A stretch of DNA of 32,258 nt from Candidatus Nealsoniibacteriota bacterium (GTDB lineage: Bacteria; Patescibacteriota; Minisyncoccia; Minisyncoccales; PWPS01), in the NCBI GenBank assembly GCA_003557645.1, contig PWNV01000004.1, forward strand, positions 1 through 32,258, written 5' to 3'. How positions within the stretch are numbered: position 1 is the first letter of the stretch; every line of letters begins with the position of its first letter. This document shows positions 1,050-32,258 of this stretch, piece after piece. The notes beneath the pieces were generated by a model. The model was given only the letters and a program-made list of their open reading frames with translations, was not told the origin of the DNA and searched no databases. Both the position numbers and the translations under genes were made by a program.

Positions 1050-1075
1050 CCGCCCCTAGAAAAGGGGCGGTTTTT
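1050..1075. terminator. Bidirectional intrinsic terminator between convergent genes
   Basis: CCGCCCCT-AGAAA-AGGGGCGG followed by TTTTT on +; the minus-strand reading lies directly after the stop of the 1074-2102 CDS. Confidence 0.85.
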
Positions 1076-2102
1076 AAAAGGGATCTACCTCTCTCCAGTC
1101 ATCGGGAAGTGGTGGCCTTACCGTAATAATCTCCGTATCAGTACAGCTTAACCCGTCTTTTGTAACGGTTAAAGTTACTTCTTTTGGCCCTTCTATCTCA
1201 AAAACTACACTCAGGCTCGCTTCCGAGCTTTCTTCCGGATCTCCTCCTTCAAACGTCCAGCTTCTAGTATCAAAATCGCCTCCACTATCAGAGAAGATAA
1301 CTTCTTTATCTACAATCGGCTTAGAAGGCTCCCAAGTAAAGCTTGAATCCGGGTACTCGGGGAGCGTTTCAAACGTAGTGCTTACCCAGTCCGACCATAA
1401 TCCATGGTCATTTCTTGACCTTATCTCCCAAACATAACTACTACTGTAATCAAGATTAGTGTAAACATACCCTCCTTCAGAACTGGTAGTAAACTCATCG
1501 GCATTTATCTTCATCTCAGATCTACTATATCCTCCTCCAAAATCTTCGTAATCCCAGTTAAGCGTTACTTGCGGAGTGATCTCACAGTAGTCCGGTGGGT
1601 GAGACACGTCTAAATTCGAGACCACCGGTTTTGGATATGGATAATATCCAGCCATATCCCAACTCATCCATCCTAAAAATCCATCTCCAAAAGAATATCC
1701 AGAGAGAGATCCTTCGTCATACAAAATTCCGTAACCCTCCCCGCTAAGAGATATCCACTCCTCAGGATCTAGTACTTTTGCCCATCCGGTTATCTCTCCT
1801 TCCTCCATGTCAAATCTCGGTACACACGGCACCTCAGGACAACCTCCTACATCAGTAAAACTAATCCACCCAAGAGCATCAGACCAAGCTTTTCCACTTA
1901 TATACCCCTCATCATCAATCTCAACTCCGTAGTTAGAGCCACAAAAACTAATCCACCCTACATTATCGGACCAAGCAAAACCAAAGATACTGTCTTCCGA
2001 GCAGTCCGTGTTAACACTACCCACTCTGTTAAAACTAAAAAGAAAAATCCCCATAAAGATTAAAAAAGAGAGGATTAAGATTTCAGTTTTTTTCAAAAAC
2101 AT
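1074..2102 (-). CDS. Exported multi-domain protein: AWSDxxGWISF-type repeats, FN3-like region, PKD-like domain, C-terminal PDDWREVDPF
   Basis: Likely start MFLKKTEILILSFLIFMGIFLF (signal peptide/TM), internal to the 2141 ORF start. Repeats FAWSDNVGWISF and KAWSDALGWISF, degenerate GWAKVLDPEEWISL, YSFGDGFLGWMSW; PKD-like SFTWEP...SWTFEGGDP...KEVTLTVTKDGLSCTDTEIITV. Confidence 0.8.
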   Translation of the reverse strand: MFLKKTEILILSFLIFMGIFLFSFNRVGSVNTDCSEDSIFGFAWSDNVGWISFCGSNYGVEIDDEGYISGKAWSDALGWISFTDVGGCPEVPCVPRFDMEEGEITGWAKVLDPEEWISLSGEGYGILYDEGSLSGYSFGDGFLGWMSWDMAGYYPYPKPVVSNLDVSHPPDYCEITPQVTLNWDYEDFGGGYSRSEMKINADEFTTSSEGGYVYTNLDYSSSYVWEIRSRNDHGLWSDWVSTTFETLPEYPDSSFTWEPSKPIVDKEVIFSDSGGDFDTRSWTFEGGDPEESSEASLSVVFEIEGPKEVTLTVTKDGLSCTDTEIITVRPPLPDDWREVDPF

Positions 2103-2497: not shown

Positions 2498-3031
2498 CTA
2501 TGCGCTTGGAAGATTGGAAATGGCTTTCGAGAGAAACGGCCTCTTTCCCGCAAAGCGGTACTTTAAGAGACTAAGCACAGTGAGAACATCACCGACTTCT
2601 TCTCTTAGTGGCCCAGGACCAACAAAAACCTCACCTACTTCCTCAAGCAGTGTCCTCGCGTAATCGTTCATTATCTTCTCTCCGCCCTCCTTTTTTAAAT
2701 ACGTCATTATCTTTTTAAACTCCCCTCTATCAAGCCACACCCCCTGGCAAACGTTACAGACATCTACTTTTATTCCAGAATCACCATAATTTACTTCATA
2801 AAGCGGCATGATACAAGTCGGGCAGTGTTTCTTTTCTTTGGAAACACGAAAATCTTTCTCGTTTTTCCATAAATCAACATCCAGCCAATCCAACTTCTTT
2901 TCCTTCATATCTTTAGCTTGAAAAAACTCATCTTTTTCAAACCAAATACCCAAGCAAGTCGGGCAGTGATCAATCTCCGTGTTCTGAAAAACCGCCTTTT
3001 CTAATTTCTGCTCACAATTTGGACAATTCAT
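2498..3031 (-). CDS. TFIIB-type zinc-ribbon protein (two zf-TFIIB modules)
   Basis: MNCPNCEQKLEKAVFQNTEIDHCPTCLGIWFEKDEF and HCPTCIMPLYEVNYGDSGIKVDVCNVCQGVWLDRGEF. Confidence 0.85.
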   Translation of the reverse strand: MNCPNCEQKLEKAVFQNTEIDHCPTCLGIWFEKDEFFQAKDMKEKKLDWLDVDLWKNEKDFRVSKEKKHCPTCIMPLYEVNYGDSGIKVDVCNVCQGVWLDRGEFKKIMTYLKKEGGEKIMNDYARTLLEEVGEVFVGPGPLREEVGDVLTVLSLLKYRFAGKRPFLSKAISNLPSA

Positions 3032-3924
3032 ACATCTATTGATCTTAAGTTTTTAATACGCTCCTCTACCGGAGGATGAGTCATAAAAAGCTTTCTGATA
3101 CGACTCTTCGCCTCCTTCCCTCGAAAGGGACTAACAACATAAAGATGTGCTGTAGCGTCATTTGCTGCCTTGAGCTGGTGAGGATCACTGGAGATCTTCT
3201 CTAAAGCTCTGGCAAGTGCTTCTGGATATCGCGTAGTAAGTGCTGCTGTAGAATCAGCAAGATGTTCTCTTTTACGGGAAATAGCAAACTTCATCACTTG
3301 AGCTAAAACAGGGGCAAGGATGAGGAAAAGGAGAGCACCAGCTAAAACGGCGAGACCAACTCCTCCTTCTCTCTGTCTCATTCCTCCAAAAAACGCCATA
3401 CGGAAGAAGAAATCAGCAATAAGAACAACTACCCCTACCAGCACCACTACCACAGATTGAATAAGAATATCACGGTTTCCGATGTGAGCAAGCTCGTGCG
3501 CTATAACCGCCTCCAGTTCCACTCTTTCCAGCCTCTCTAAAAGCCCTGTGGTAACAGCAATAACACCGTGCTTAGGATCGCGCCCTGTGGCGAAGGCGTT
3601 GGGCTGTTTATCTTCTATCACAAAAAGACGAGGGACCGGAAGACCATTTGTAATCGCCAGATTCTCTGCAATACGATACAGCTCTGGATTGTCATCCTTT
3701 TTTATCGGCGTGGCCTTACTCATTCTCAAGATAATCTTGTCCGAGTACCAGTAAGAGCTAAAACTCATCACCACCGAAATCCCTACCGCCAAGTAGAGTA
3801 TCCACTGCCCTTCAAACACGTAACTTAAAACCCATCCCACGGCCATAATGAGAAGAAAAAATCCAAACAAATAAAGATACGTGCGAAAAATATTCTTTTC
3901 CGCTTCTCTGTATAGTGTTGCCAT
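3028..3924 (-). CDS. htpX: M48 family membrane metalloprotease HtpX
   Basis: HELAH zinc motif, NAFATGRDPKHGVIAVTTGLL, multiple TM helices. Confidence 0.93.
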   Translation of the reverse strand: MATLYREAEKNIFRTYLYLFGFFLLIMAVGWVLSYVFEGQWILYLAVGISVVMSFSSYWYSDKIILRMSKATPIKKDDNPELYRIAENLAITNGLPVPRLFVIEDKQPNAFATGRDPKHGVIAVTTGLLERLERVELEAVIAHELAHIGNRDILIQSVVVVLVGVVVLIADFFFRMAFFGGMRQREGGVGLAVLAGALLFLILAPVLAQVMKFAISRKREHLADSTAALTTRYPEALARALEKISSDPHQLKAANDATAHLYVVSPFRGKEAKSRIRKLFMTHPPVEERIKNLRSIDV

Positions 3925-3927
3925 GTT

Positions 3928-4494
3928 TTAGAAACTTACGTTTACAGGATCTCTTTCTTCTTTATTTTCTATTTCAAAGAAATCCTGCTTTTCAAATCCA
4001 AACATACCAGCGACAAGATTTACCGGGAACATCTCTACTTTAGTATTAATCTCTTTGACGTTGCGATTGTAGAATCTTCTGGAAGCCTGAATCTTGTCCT
4101 CGGTATCCCTAATCTCTTTTTGTAGTTCAATGAAATTTTCTGATGCCTTTAAATCGGGATAATTCTCTGAAACCGCAAAAAGACTCTTTAGTGCGCCCGC
4201 AAGTTGGTTTTCCGCTTCTCCCACTTTCTTGGGATCACCGGACTGCTCTGCGCTCATTGCACTCGCTCTCGCCTTGGTTACTCTTTCAAAAATCTCTCTT
4301 TCGTGAGTTGCATATCCTTTCACCGTCTCTACTAAGTTAGGGATAAGATCATATCTTCTCTTAAGCTGTACGTCTATATCTGCCCAAGCTTCCTTTACCC
4401 TGTTTCTTAAAGTTACAAGGCGGTTATAGGAAAAGACAAGCCAGAGAAGAAGTAAAACAATCAGTCCTATTAAAATATTAACTGGCGTAAACAT
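3928..4494 (-). CDS. lemA: LemA family protein
   Basis: YNRLVTLRNRVKEAWADIDVQLKRRYDLIPNLVETVKGYATHE...; N-terminal TM; adjacent to htpX. Confidence 0.93.
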   Translation of the reverse strand: MFTPVNILIGLIVLLLLWLVFSYNRLVTLRNRVKEAWADIDVQLKRRYDLIPNLVETVKGYATHEREIFERVTKARASAMSAEQSGDPKKVGEAENQLAGALKSLFAVSENYPDLKASENFIELQKEIRDTEDKIQASRRFYNRNVKEINTKVEMFPVNLVAGMFGFEKQDFFEIENKEERDPVNVSF

Positions 4495-27264: not shown

Positions 27265-29329
27265 TGATAAGATTCAAAAACTCTGCTTCGTTAATAATAT
27301 TTCTTTTTAAGGCTTTCGCCTCCTTAAGCTTGGACCCCGGATTATCTCCTACTACTAGATAGTTTGTGTTGCGAGAAACTGATGATGAAACTTTCCCTCC
27401 TAAATGAGAAATTTTTTGTTTCGCCTCTTCTCTTGTCATCTTCTCAAGACTACCAGTAATAACAAAAACTTTCCCATCAAACTTTTTTTGTGTTTTTTCT
27501 TTCTTTATTACTACTCCCACATCTTTTAACTTTTTAATGAGGTCTCTATTTTTTTCATCTTGGAAAAATTTAAAAATCTGTTTTGCAGTTTTTGGACCTA
27601 CATCAGGAACATTTTCCAGTTCTTCTAAAGAGGCACTTTCTACTTTTTCTAGGCTACCAAAAGCTCTTGCTATATCACGCGCAACACCCTCTCCCACATA
27701 AGAGATTGAAAGTGCTTGCAGAAACCGAGAAAGAGAGATGTGTTTGCTGTTTTGAATAGACGCAACCAATTTCTTGGAAGATAGTTCCGCGAAACGCTCT
27801 AGATGAGTTAAATCTCCTTCGTGAAGCATAAAGAGATCAGCCGGATCAGAGATGATTCCTTCCATTAACAGCTGATCAATAACTTTTTCTCCTAATCCAT
27901 CAATATCAAACCCTTTTTTGGAAACAAAATAACTAAGTTGTTGCCTTCTCTTTCCTTGACAGTTTTTATTAATACAGTACCATCTCGCCTCATCTTTCGG
28001 TCGCAAGACCTCTCCCTCACAAAGCGGACACTTTTTGGGGAAAACAATTTTCTTTTCTTCTCCCTTGCGAAACTCTTTTAATACTTTCACAACACGAGGA
28101 ATAACATCTCCCGCCCTTCCAACTATCACCGTATCTTTTTTCTTTACGCCCAAACGCTTGATCTCATCTTCGTTGTGCAGTGTAGCACGAGATACGGTTA
28201 CTCCTCCAAGAGAAATCGGTTCAAGTAAAGCCACCGGAGTAATCGCTCCCGTTCTTCCTATTTGAAAATGCACGTCGTTTATTGTTGTTGCTCTTTCCTC
28301 TAGTGGAAATTTGTAAGCAATCCCACCACGAGGAGACTTTCCAGCAACTCCCAATACTTCAAACAACTCGTTGTCATTTACAAACACAGCCACTCCGTCA
28401 ATTTGATAAGTGTACCTTTCTCTTTCCTTTTCCGTTTTTCTGTAAAAATGAAAAACCTCAGAGAGATCTCGACAGTACTTTTCACGATCCACTGTTTTAA
28501 ATCCAAGAGCACGTAGGAGAAGATGCTTTTCTTGGTGCGTTTTGGCTCCAAAGGGAGTCACCATTTCTTTTTCTTCTTTGTCCGCTACTAGGTTATAAGC
28601 AAGAAAACCAAGATTGCGGCTTGCAGCAATCTTTGGATCAAGCTGTCTTATTGATCCAGCGGCAATATTCCTTGGATTGGCGTAGAGAGGAAGTCCCATT
28701 TTTTCTCTTTCTTTGTTCTGTTTTAAAAACTCTTTTTTGGAAATAAAAACTTCCCCGTGAACAACAATACTTTTCCCGTCTTTTCTCCATCCAAAGCTCT
28801 GAGAAATTTTCTTTTCTTCTTTAGAAAAACTGCTTGGAGATCGAAGTCGTAAAGGAACTGCTTCTATGGTCTTCAAGTTTTGCGTTACATCCTCGCCAAT
28901 TTTTCCATCACCTCTTGTAGAGCCACTAACTAAAACATCATCTTCATAAACAAGCTCTACCGCTAAACCATCCACTTTAAGTTCACAAAAGTAATCTATC
29001 TTAACTTCGGGAGGAAGGAGACGTTTTATTCTTTTTTCAAAATTACACATATCCTCCTTACTAAAAGCATCTTGGAAAGAGAACATCTCTCTGTAGTGCT
29101 CTACTTTTTCAAACTCATCAAGCGTCTTTCCTTCCACTCTTTGTGTCGGCGAATCGGGAGTTACAAGATCAGGAAAATCGCTCTCCAAATCAAAAAGCTC
29201 TTTTTTAAGAGAGTCCAGTGCATCGGCGGACACCTCCTCTCTGTCGTGAACATGATAGAGATAGCGATAATGATTAATAACTTTCTTGAGATCTTCTATT
29301 CTTTTTTTTGCCCCCTCTTTATTCTTCAT
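27248..29329 (-). CDS. ligA: NAD-dependent DNA ligase LigA
   Basis: CELKVDGLAVELVYEDDVLVSGSTRGDGKIGEDVTQN, Zn finger CPLCEG..CINKNCQGK, HhH and BRCT domains. Confidence 0.99.
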   Translation of the reverse strand: MKNKEGAKKRIEDLKKVINHYRYLYHVHDREEVSADALDSLKKELFDLESDFPDLVTPDSPTQRVEGKTLDEFEKVEHYREMFSFQDAFSKEDMCNFEKRIKRLLPPEVKIDYFCELKVDGLAVELVYEDDVLVSGSTRGDGKIGEDVTQNLKTIEAVPLRLRSPSSFSKEEKKISQSFGWRKDGKSIVVHGEVFISKKEFLKQNKEREKMGLPLYANPRNIAAGSIRQLDPKIAASRNLGFLAYNLVADKEEKEMVTPFGAKTHQEKHLLLRALGFKTVDREKYCRDLSEVFHFYRKTEKERERYTYQIDGVAVFVNDNELFEVLGVAGKSPRGGIAYKFPLEERATTINDVHFQIGRTGAITPVALLEPISLGGVTVSRATLHNEDEIKRLGVKKKDTVIVGRAGDVIPRVVKVLKEFRKGEEKKIVFPKKCPLCEGEVLRPKDEARWYCINKNCQGKRRQQLSYFVSKKGFDIDGLGEKVIDQLLMEGIISDPADLFMLHEGDLTHLERFAELSSKKLVASIQNSKHISLSRFLQALSISYVGEGVARDIARAFGSLEKVESASLEELENVPDVGPKTAKQIFKFFQDEKNRDLIKKLKDVGVVIKKEKTQKKFDGKVFVITGSLEKMTREEAKQKISHLGGKVSSSVSRNTNYLVVGDNPGSKLKEAKALKRNIINEAEFLNLINEKNN

Positions 29330-29693
29330 GAGTTCTTCTAACTATCCAGATAGCTCTTCTGGTTCCTCTGTGCAGTCCTACAGATTTAATCTCCGTCTCA
29401 TAGTACCAGTCAATAAGAACCGGTCCTTCCTTTTCATACATATAATAAGTGTCTTCTGCAAGTTCATGTTCTGTGTCCCAATCAAGCTCGTCAAAACTTT
29501 CATCATCCCAAGAATACAGGATCTCTTCTATCCCTGTGTCAGCAGCGTAAAAAGCGGTTACCGATTCTCCGATATCTTCAATCATTCTAAGTTGACTGAT
29601 GAACATGTTCGTAGAGGAAAGTCCAAGAATAAAAAGCACTCCCATTATTATAATAGTAAAGTATAAAGCTGATCCTTTTTGTTTTTTATTCAT
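29319..29693 (-). CDS. PilX-like pilus assembly protein / hypothetical
   Basis: NKKQKGSALYFTIIIMGVLFILGLSSTNMFISQLRMIEDIGESVTAFYAADTGIEEILY: PilX-like N-terminal helix and AxxAAxxGIE motif, within a pilin operon. Confidence 0.7.
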   Translation of the reverse strand: MNKKQKGSALYFTIIIMGVLFILGLSSTNMFISQLRMIEDIGESVTAFYAADTGIEEILYSWDDESFDELDWDTEHELAEDTYYMYEKEGPVLIDWYYETEIKSVGLHRGTRRAIWIVRRTHEE

Positions 29694-29695
29694 AA

Positions 29696-30277
29696 TTAAG
29701 GGGTTGCAAAATCAATACCTCTTCTTGTAATAGTGGTCTGAATATCAAGCTCAAACCAGTCTTGATCTTCCTCTTTTGCGGTAAAGAGAACTGTTATCGA
29801 CGGTTGTATTTTATTAATATCCTTTTCTGCTTTTCCCTGATCTTCTTCTGGGTCTATAATCGTTCTAATCTGAAAGTTTTCAATAACGATATTAGAGGAT
29901 GTCAAAAATCCTTCCACTGTTTCTTCCCCCTCAATCACTATTTTCACTCTCTCATCTTCCTCAAAAAAACTAATACACCTCCCTTGATAATCGAAGAATT
30001 TCAATACTTCATTTTCTAGATTGTAAGTATAATCCTCGTATCCAATACAACTTCCATCGATGTCTTTTCTTGCCATTCTTGCTAGTCTGCTTATGTACTC
30101 CATCGCATAGTTTATCTCTCCCAGATTTCTTTGTGTAGTGAAAATTCTTTGTTTTACTCGAAGATTGGTAATAAGTGTTCCTGTAAGCATTACGATTATA
30201 AGTGAAAATATAAACATCGACACCAGCACCTCTACTAGCGTTATTCCTTTTTCATTTTGAAATATTTTCTTAGTCAT
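29696..30277 (-). CDS. Type IV pilin-like protein (prepilin N-terminal methylation motif, PilW/PulJ-like)
   Basis: EKGITLVEVLVSMFIFSLIIVMLTGTLI; G(-1) and E(+5) present. Confidence 0.85.
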   Translation of the reverse strand: MTKKIFQNEKGITLVEVLVSMFIFSLIIVMLTGTLITNLRVKQRIFTTQRNLGEINYAMEYISRLARMARKDIDGSCIGYEDYTYNLENEVLKFFDYQGRCISFFEEDERVKIVIEGEETVEGFLTSSNIVIENFQIRTIIDPEEDQGKAEKDINKIQPSITVLFTAKEEDQDWFELDIQTTITRRGIDFATP

Positions 30278-30779
30278 ACCATCTGTATAATTTAAGGTAA
30301 GCCTCTCTTCTCTCTTCTTCTCCTCTTTCTTCCCAAAAAACAGTGACCGTTACAAGTAAATAATCTTCTTCTGCGGTTTCTACTCTCTCAACATTTACTT
30401 CTCTTCTAAATCCAGAGTAATCTCCTGCGTCGTCGTGGCTGAAGAGACCGTCTCCATCAACGTAAAGCCTAAAAAAGTTAGCTCCTAAACCACCTTCAAT
30501 TTCTTCAGAGTTGTAATCAATTCTTCCTGTTCCCTCCATCTCGTCTACTATATCTTCCCACCCCTTCCCTTGAAGCCATCCCGAATCCCTAACTCTTCTA
30601 ACAGATTCAACCCCCTCTTGTGTTAGGTAAGAAGCTGTTAACTTATCAGCTAAAGGCATCGTAGATGTAAAAGCACTGGTAATCATGGCAACAGAAGCCA
30701 CCACTCCCGTGGAGATCACGCCAATAACAACTAAAAGCTCGATAAAAGTAAGTCCTTTTTGTAGTTTTTTTAATCTCAT
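30270..30779 (-). CDS. Type IV pilin-like protein (PilV/GspI-like)
   Basis: QKGLTFIELLVVIGVISTGVVASVAMI. Confidence 0.85.
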   Translation of the reverse strand: MRLKKLQKGLTFIELLVVIGVISTGVVASVAMITSAFTSTMPLADKLTASYLTQEGVESVRRVRDSGWLQGKGWEDIVDEMEGTGRIDYNSEEIEGGLGANFFRLYVDGDGLFSHDDAGDYSGFRREVNVERVETAEEDYLLVTVTVFWEERGEEERREAYLKLYRWYD

Positions 30780-31315
30780 AGATGCTTAATGCTTACAAGG
30801 CCGACACTATTAACAATGATAATCATCTTAGGATCGTTTTCATAAGCATACCCTATCTCTATCTCAACTTCATCTACTTCTTCTTCGCTAAAGCGCACCG
30901 TCGGATCAGGAGGAGAAAAAGTAACCTCTAACGGATCTTCTGGTGAGAACACAACAACTTCTCTCTCCAGTTCTTTTTTTCTAATTATAACTCTTCTTAT
31001 CTCCTCATCTCCGCCACCAGTTGGAACTATTCGAGTTTCTGCAAACAATTCATAATTATCACTCTCAAACCTTATTCCGTATCTTCTCCCAGGAACAAAG
31101 TCATACAAATTCTCATCTATCTCAAAATCAACCTCTTTAGCAGAGATTGACATACCTCTTACTCTTTCTATCTCTTTTGCTATATTATTTACTTCTTCTT
31201 CCAAGAAAATATTTCTATTAAAAATCCCATAACCAGGAAAAACAAGCACCGAAACAATTGCTATTATCCCTATAGCTACCATTAACTCTATAATACTAAA
31301 TCCTTTTGTGCTCAT
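30776..31315 (-). CDS. Type IV pilin-like protein (GspH/FimT-like)
   Basis: TKGFSIIELMVAIGIIAIVSVLVFPGY. Confidence 0.85.
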   Translation of the reverse strand: MSTKGFSIIELMVAIGIIAIVSVLVFPGYGIFNRNIFLEEEVNNIAKEIERVRGMSISAKEVDFEIDENLYDFVPGRRYGIRFESDNYELFAETRIVPTGGGDEEIRRVIIRKKELEREVVVFSPEDPLEVTFSPPDPTVRFSEEEVDEVEIEIGYAYENDPKMIIIVNSVGLVSIKHL

Positions 31316-32082
31316 ATAATAAAACTAAAATACCAATCTACTAAAAAATCTCCAAAAAAATAGGAAAGAATTGTACCGGTAATAAGAAAGGGTCCAAAAG
31401 GTATCTCACTTTTCATTCCCTTTTTTTTCAGTGTTAATAAGATTAATCCTATTATAGCACCAAGAGAAAAAGAAAGAAAAAGGCCAACGATGATTTCAGG
31501 AAATCCAAGGAAAAGACCCATGAAAATAACATATTTAACATCACCAAACCCCATCCCTTTTCCTTTAGAGAGATAGAAAATAAGAAAAAAGAATACAAAC
31601 GCTCCCAGAGCGGAAAAAACAGGATAAAGAAGATTATTTACATCTCCTTCTGTGAAAAAATGGAAAAAGCGATAAAGGAGAGCTATTCCTATAAGAGAGA
31701 AAACGGCAAAATCAGGAATAATATAATACTTTAAATCATAGACAAAAACAAAGGAAAGCAAAGACAGAACAAAAAACAAATAGAAAAGTGTAGCAAGAGA
31801 AAGTGCAGGAACGATAAATAAATAAGAAGACAGAAAAACCAACCCAACAGCAAGCTCTACCAGAGGATACTGTACTGATATTTTTTCTTTACAATACCGG
31901 CATCTTCCAAATAAAAAAACCCAACTTAAAAGAGGAACCAGGTCCTTGGCAAAAAGACTGTGCCTACAGTGAGGACAAAAAGATGTGCCTCTCATGCTTT
32001 GCTCGGTATAAACGCGATAAACGGCACAATTAATAAATGAACCGATGGCAAGTCCTAGTAAAAAAACAAATAGAAAATCCAT
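31312..32082 (-). CDS. pilD: Prepilin peptidase / N-methyltransferase
   Basis: FLLGLAIGSFINCAVYR, CPHC...CRYC zinc motif, GMGFGDVKYVIFMGL. Start MDFLFV at 32082 preferred over 32106 (inside the terminator). Confidence 0.93.
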   Translation of the reverse strand: MDFLFVFLLGLAIGSFINCAVYRVYTEQSMRGTSFCPHCRHSLFAKDLVPLLSWVFLFGRCRYCKEKISVQYPLVELAVGLVFLSSYLFIVPALSLATLFYLFFVLSLLSFVFVYDLKYYIIPDFAVFSLIGIALLYRFFHFFTEGDVNNLLYPVFSALGAFVFFFLIFYLSKGKGMGFGDVKYVIFMGLFLGFPEIIVGLFLSFSLGAIIGLILLTLKKKGMKSEIPFGPFLITGTILSYFFGDFLVDWYFSFII

Positions 32083-32088
32083 ATCACA

Positions 32089-32117
32089 AGAATAACAAAA
32101 AAACACTGCCTCTTCAA
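32089..32117 (-). promoter_or_regulatory. Putative pilD-operon promoter TTGAAG-N17-(TGT)TATTCT, -10 ends 6 nt before ATG
   Basis: -35 at 32112-32117, -10 at 32089-32094 on minus strand; overlaps the upstream terminator hairpin. Confidence 0.5.
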
Positions 32118-32136: not shown

Positions 32137-32258
32137 TTAGAAAGGATCCACTTCTCTCCAGTCATCGGGAGGTGGTGGACGAACGCTAACTGTCTGTGTG
32201 TTTTCGCAGGATTCAGTTGCACTTGAAACCTCCAGTGTCACTTCTTTGTCTCCTTCTC
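32137..32258 (-). CDS. C-terminal fragment of a second PKD-type exported protein ending PDDWREVDPF (truncated by window edge)
   Basis: Translated on minus strand: EGDKEVTLEVSSATESCENTQTVSVRPPPPDDWREVDPF-stop; aligns without gaps to the end of the 1074-2102 protein. Confidence 0.85.
   Translation of the reverse strand, partial: EGDKEVTLEVSSATESCENTQTVSVRPPPPDDWREVDPF

Follow-up and report, generated by a model that had tools for sequence, protein, structure and literature searches.

The window analysed here is a stretch of 32,258 bases, which is contig C11 of a 596 kb genome (G000) that is 98.5% complete. Its minus strand carries two genes whose products share a C-terminal peptide, together with a run of pilus genes, and the features are collected in Table 1. 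Protein 1 ends in VRPPLPDDWREVDPF and protein 2 in VRPPPPDDWREVDPF, each directly followed by a stop codon. The initial annotation took the shared end for a short tag serving surface display, secretion or assembly. In both translations the last 10 residues are the same (PDDWREVDPF-stop), a single L/P difference separates the last 15, and the six synonymous codon differences that had been listed (V, R, E, V, P and F) are all correct. The domain upstream has diverged as described, with about 46% identity by eye over the preceding 24 residues. The six synonymous differences and the diverged upstream domain together rule out chance or a recent copy for this pair of proteins.

Table 1. Features of the window that bear on the tagged proteins and the adjoining pilus genes.
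Feature	Position	Strand	Basis
Tagged protein 1, 342 aa, putatively exported	1074..2102	(-)	Signal sequence, WSEN module, Ig/FN3-like, PKD, tag
Protein 1 C-terminal tag (PPLPDDWREVDPF), past last PKD strand	1077..1115	(-)	Predicted coil beyond strand 318-329, with pLDDT down to about 53
Protein 1 C-terminal PKD domain	1116..1364	(-)	Pfam PKD_4 E=7.7e-5, under curated cut-off; AlphaFold block pLDDT about 87-97
Protein 1 aromatic-rich "SDNVGWISF" N-terminal module (WSENIGWISF family)	1650..1988	(-)	Profile A2 match E=4.4e-30
PilX-like minor pilin	29319..29693	(-)	Alignment A1; profile matches 93/100 order relatives
PilW-like minor pilin	29696..30277	(-)	ORF; prepilin N-terminus and operon order
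PilV-like minor pilin	30270..30779	(-)	ORF; prepilin N-terminus and operon order
GspH/FimT-like minor pilin	30776..31315	(-)	ORF; prepilin N-terminus and operon order
PilD-like prepilin peptidase	31312..32106	(-)	ORF; name from sequence and operon order
Tagged protein 2, C-terminal fragment, truncated by contig end	32137..32256	(-)	Translated sequence
Protein 2 C-terminal tag PDDWREVDPF	32140..32169	(-)	Sequence

Both proteins are real, but two was too low a count, as the genome holds four proteins ending in DDW[RQ]EVDPF-stop. A genome-wide motif search placed the third at C10:487-516, with exactly the same peptide, and the fourth at C7:2392-2418, where it reads DDWQEVDPF-stop, while the reversed pattern used as a control had zero matches in this genome. 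For G000 the analysis covered searches and the sequence surrounding hits and control sites. The final domain is nearly identical among the C7, C10 and C11-end copies, and these are therefore recent paralogues. The claim that the peptide is not a recent copy stands for protein 1 against the others but not among these three. The tagged genes on C7, C10 and C11 each lie at or near a contig end, and the assembly was probably broken there because near-identical tagged paralogues are repeats.

Carriers of the motif occur across the order, not only in these two proteins, as a C-terminal motif search established. Among about 100 order relatives the consensus is LPLP-[ED]-[WY]-[KRQ]-E-[IV]-x-P-F, or roughly Pro-x-Trp-Lys-Glu-Ile-x-Pro-Phe, at the C-terminus of exported-looking proteins. 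The pattern W-x-E-[IV]-x-P-F-stop is present in 24 of 100 relatives, with matches to the reversed control rare, and nearly all matches are the ends of long exported-looking proteins (for example PLPEWKEITPF, MPVPDWEEIAPF, IPLPEWYEVTPF and LPDDWREVPPF). Where the motif is not followed directly by a stop in PKD-type proteins, it still lies at most 45 residues from the C-terminus (as PFPD, PFEE, PFNW, PFN or PFIWLKNFFASILENLGKIFS). Other matches lacking the stop, such as EIYYPKTQNSPEGWREIEPF and one in FtsW, are coincidental and fall in unrelated proteins or non-coding sequence. No paper describing the motif was found in the open-access literature.

The tag is lineage-specific. When the P-x-W form was sought in 389 genomes across the phylum, it was found in one member of the order, one member of the class and 0 of 355 genomes from other classes; the scan undercounts because it demands P-x-W, and the spacing in the window itself is P-D-D-W. 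In G477, a genome from another order of the class, PNWKEILPF-stop is matched twice (L219 and L221), with about 2 kb between the matches. Across GTDB, WKEIxPF-stop occurs in at least 120 stretches, mostly by chance. Among the matches listed, about 18 form the end of an ORF 100 aa or longer, and all but one of these are in Patescibacteria or on contigs that are also in the order. The exception, L277, is a PKD-type protein ending in WKEILPF-stop on a contig labelled Aminicenantes, possibly through mis-binning or horizontal transfer. Named carriers are Staskawicz-, Nealson-, Wildermuth-, Portnoy- and other Parcubacteria.

Many carriers begin with an aromatic-rich module of about 130-150 aa built of G[WY]AWSENIGWISFN repeats, and a profile of this module gave us a set of proteins chosen without regard to the tail. 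The profile matched in 57 of 100 genomes; in the carriers scanned, neither Pfam nor NCBIfam had a match to the module, which is a candidate new surface domain. A core scored as [WYF]-x-[ED]-[ILVMAT]-x-P in the last 50 residues was found in 31 of 38 complete module proteins versus 7 of 618 control ORFs (Fisher p about 1e-39, overstated because the 38 are homologous), and three of the seven control matches are true tagged proteins. Of the seven module proteins that lack the core, two look degenerate (AIPQIREIAPY and LPLPEIIEIPPR). Mean pairwise identity was 48% in the 12-residue tail versus 26% in the preceding 105 residues, the former inflated because the regular expression served for selection. 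The module proteins are homologous, so common ancestry accounts for some of the conservation.

The tag almost always directly follows a PKD-like beta-sandwich, and many carriers are orthologues. Both facts would suit an ordinary tail, conserved in one PKD-type domain family as an extension whose role is structural and intramolecular. Pfam PKD or PKD_4 matched the C-terminal domain in several carriers, some under cut-off, and a PDB fold search returned generic Ig/FN3/PKD folds only. However, across the 35,070 aa of 64 non-redundant carriers and module proteins, all 51 occurrences of the core are C-terminal and none is internal, even in a carrier with three PKD stretches, which bears out the C-terminal anchoring that had been proposed. 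In AlphaFold models of protein 1 and a Nealsonbacteria orthologue, both built from shallow alignments of 12 and 10 sequences, the last strand ends at residue 329 and 407 and is followed by 12-13 residues of coil with falling confidence (final block pLDDT 53 and 63). The models thus support a tag that would lie outside the PKD fold. Two extra residues or an entire helix may also follow the motif, and the tag is found on a 190-aa Gly-rich protein in which no PKD domain was detected. We rejected the tail as a generic last strand of PKD domains on the zero internal cores and the two models, and we regard a structural extension of the domain family as improbable. The architectures that carry the tag are varied: WSENIGWISF, PKD/Ig, Kelch plus FISUMP, InlB B-repeats and DUF2341.

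The initial annotation had named, as an outcome that would count against a tag, a PKD strand with neither anchoring nor enrichment in exported proteins. Enrichment among exported-looking proteins was found, with a strong N-terminal hydrophobic segment in 24 of 24 full-length tagged proteins versus 71 of 229 control ORFs. By a loose pattern, an Ala-type cleavage-like site was present in 50 of 52, and one protein had a lipobox-like match. From these sequence features, the carriers are probably exported via a Sec-type signal sequence. What the data contain, then, is a conserved, C-terminally anchored, portable and lineage-specific tail on exported-looking proteins.

Past the core proline, the 31 tails fall into two forms. 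In 16, the protein ends after 0-3 residues, and in the other 15 it runs on for 16-34 residues in an amphipathic, helix-like stretch right after the motif (for example LPLPEYQEVPPTTWFKNLFAEIVNLFDGFLKI; hydrophobic moment maxima 0.39-0.69). The best 15-residue Kyte-Doolittle mean of the long tails is at most 1.63 and a basic end is inconsistent. The description of a tail with no trailing helix therefore fits the window's proteins but not about half of the orthologues. It was right, however, that this is not a classical LPXTG or PEP-CTERM signal, since the short forms stop at PF and the long forms are amphipathic.

The nearest parallels are the CTERM-type sorting tags, namely LPXTG/sortase, PEP-CTERM/exosortase, GlyGly-CTERM/rhombosortase and MYXO-CTERM/myxosortase (PMC3237569, PMC11980579). 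As in those systems, a short C-terminal signature sits on otherwise unrelated exported proteins, is lineage-restricted and has one to several carriers per genome, and the tail here often has LP just before the core. In contrast to them, it lacks the transmembrane helix and basic cluster, and it may stop at Phe. The layout, and the amphipathic stretch that extends about half of the orthologues, leave room for a processed or membrane-associating sorting signal, in which the long form would associate with the membrane and be cut or passed on by an unrecognised enzyme, with the short form a reduced version. The extension fits membrane association equally well and keeps this a serious rival. Against it, more than half of the tails (the 16 short ones) have no hydrophobic part, and the helices of the rest are amphipathic, not membrane-spanning. 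A co-occurring processing enzyme, which the initial annotation had suggested seeking, was not found: G000 had no match to sortase (PF04203), rhomboid (PF01694) or exosortase (PF09721), and neither sortase nor rhomboid was present in 16 of 24 short-tag genomes. The presence of sortase does not follow that of the tag; if anything, sortase is rarer with it (5 of 24 short-tag genomes versus 32 of 76 others). Ten tagged proteins searched against NCBIfam with E up to 0.1 gave no CTERM model match. We therefore reject a sortase, rhombosortase or exosortase substrate as a general explanation, on the absence of these enzymes from G000 and the failure of sortase to track the tag, and consider a sorting signal of the broader kind rather unlikely. 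The Por_Secre_tail of type IX secretion is similar in that conserved terminal residues follow a C-terminal beta-sandwich on diverse secreted proteins, but motif and phylum differ, and none of the carriers scanned matched a Por secretion tail model of Pfam or NCBIfam.

The gene neighbourhood suggests a candidate partner. In the window the gene for protein 2 is followed by PilD-GspH-PilV-PilW-PilX, and elsewhere the PilY1 gene is placed near minor pilins, in the same position. The order tag-(PilD)-GspH-PilV-PilW-PilX recurs in G000, G001, G022, G031, G040, G060, G091 and Portnoybacteria, while the tagged gene of G050 is inside the operon, between PilW and PilX. A type IV pilus gene was found within 8 kb in 12 of 27 tagged contexts versus 2 of 20 random 16-kb windows (p=0.02), as called with reference proteins; of the 12, L071 at least is probably spurious. 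PilX-like genes are near-universal in the order (93 of 100 genomes), so co-occurrence of tag and PilX is uninformative. Over half of the tagged genes lack a pilus gene within 8 kb. Of 40 minor-pilin operons collected without regard to the tag, few of those listed have a tagged neighbour. Two genomes with a long-form tag (G059 and G069) had no PilX-like match, yet both have PilC-type proteins. Strict dependence of the tag on the minor-pilin operon was rejected on these two genomes and on the many carriers away from operons. The proposed link to pilus genes thus holds for a substantial minority of tagged genes, those next to minor pilins or to a second PilB/PilC cluster, and not for many others.

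That second type IV pilus-like cluster, rny - histidine kinase - response regulator - PilB - PilC - pilins, adjoins tagged genes in several genera (at L058, L059, L060, L072 and L084). Its position raises the alternative that type IV pilus-like (pseudopilus) export machinery reads the tail as a signal for secretion. However, Sec export alone would already put the protein outside, barring an outer barrier, and no short linear C-terminal signal is generally known from type II substrates; we think such an export signal improbable. Two further kinds of neighbour were observed. Genes read from their sequence as LemA, an M48 protease (HtpX-like) and a Zn-ribbon protein adjoin a tagged gene in the window (2498-4494, beside protein 1) and in Nealsonbacteria at L268 and L282, and phage-tail-fibre-like proteins with GNVGIGTT repeats adjoin tagged genes at L059, L061, L067, L076 and L282.

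The carriers resemble the PilY1/PilC tip adhesins of type IVa pili in that the tagged gene adjoins the minor pilins GspH-PilV-PilW-PilX in several families and the proteins are large, modular and beta-rich, as secreted adhesins are. They differ in being PKD/Ig/Kelch/InlB proteins and in being encoded also away from pilus operons, and the Neisseria_PilC/PilY1 beta-propeller C-terminal domain had no Pfam match in 19 carriers. Beta-strand complementation between PilX and PilY1 has been predicted for pilus tips in other systems (PMC13190605). This prediction and the recurrent PilY1-like position make the pilus tip the best candidate for a partner.

We speculate that the peptide is a lineage-specific docking or retention tag that acts non-covalently, plausibly at the pilus tip. 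We favour this reading tentatively, at somewhat below an even chance. The tag would consist of the core P-x-[W/Y]-[KRQ]-E-[IV]-x-P followed either by Phe as the last residue or by a short amphipathic helix. Carriers would leave by a Sec-type signal sequence, with no recognised C-terminal anchor, and the last PKD-like domain would present the flexible tail to a cell-surface partner that binds it non-covalently. If one acceptor binds the tail, adhesins with very different N-terminal modules would therefore be interchangeable. The best candidate acceptor would be the tip complex of a type IV pilus or pseudopilus (GspH-PilV-PilW-PilX), with the tagged protein in the PilY1 role. The pilus link is not universal. 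The tag itself is well supported, whereas binding, non-covalent retention and a pilus partner are what we infer from it and its surroundings. Of the original proposal of a tag for surface display, secretion or assembly, the conserved, anchored and portable tail on exported-looking proteins stands, and its partner can only be suggested. In its most specific form, the idea of a new anchor-free peptide of about 10 residues that plugs swappable adhesins non-covalently onto the minor-pilin tip of a type IV pilus, or onto another surface scaffold, is possible but doubtful.

The tag bears on how Patescibacteria, with their reduced genomes and episymbiotic habit, display host-contact proteins. For relatives in the same class, a life on methanogenic archaea and high expression of PKD- and Ig-fold proteins have been reported (PMC10936435). 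A recognisable C-terminal tag allows candidate surface and host-contact proteins to be listed from sequence alone, including those of uncultivated Nealson-, Staskawicz-, Wildermuth- and Portnoybacteria. Should the pilus tip prove to be the partner, this would explain how one pilus could bear many adhesins, and episymbionts in an order of Patescibacteria would have a modular, swappable tip for contact with their hosts.
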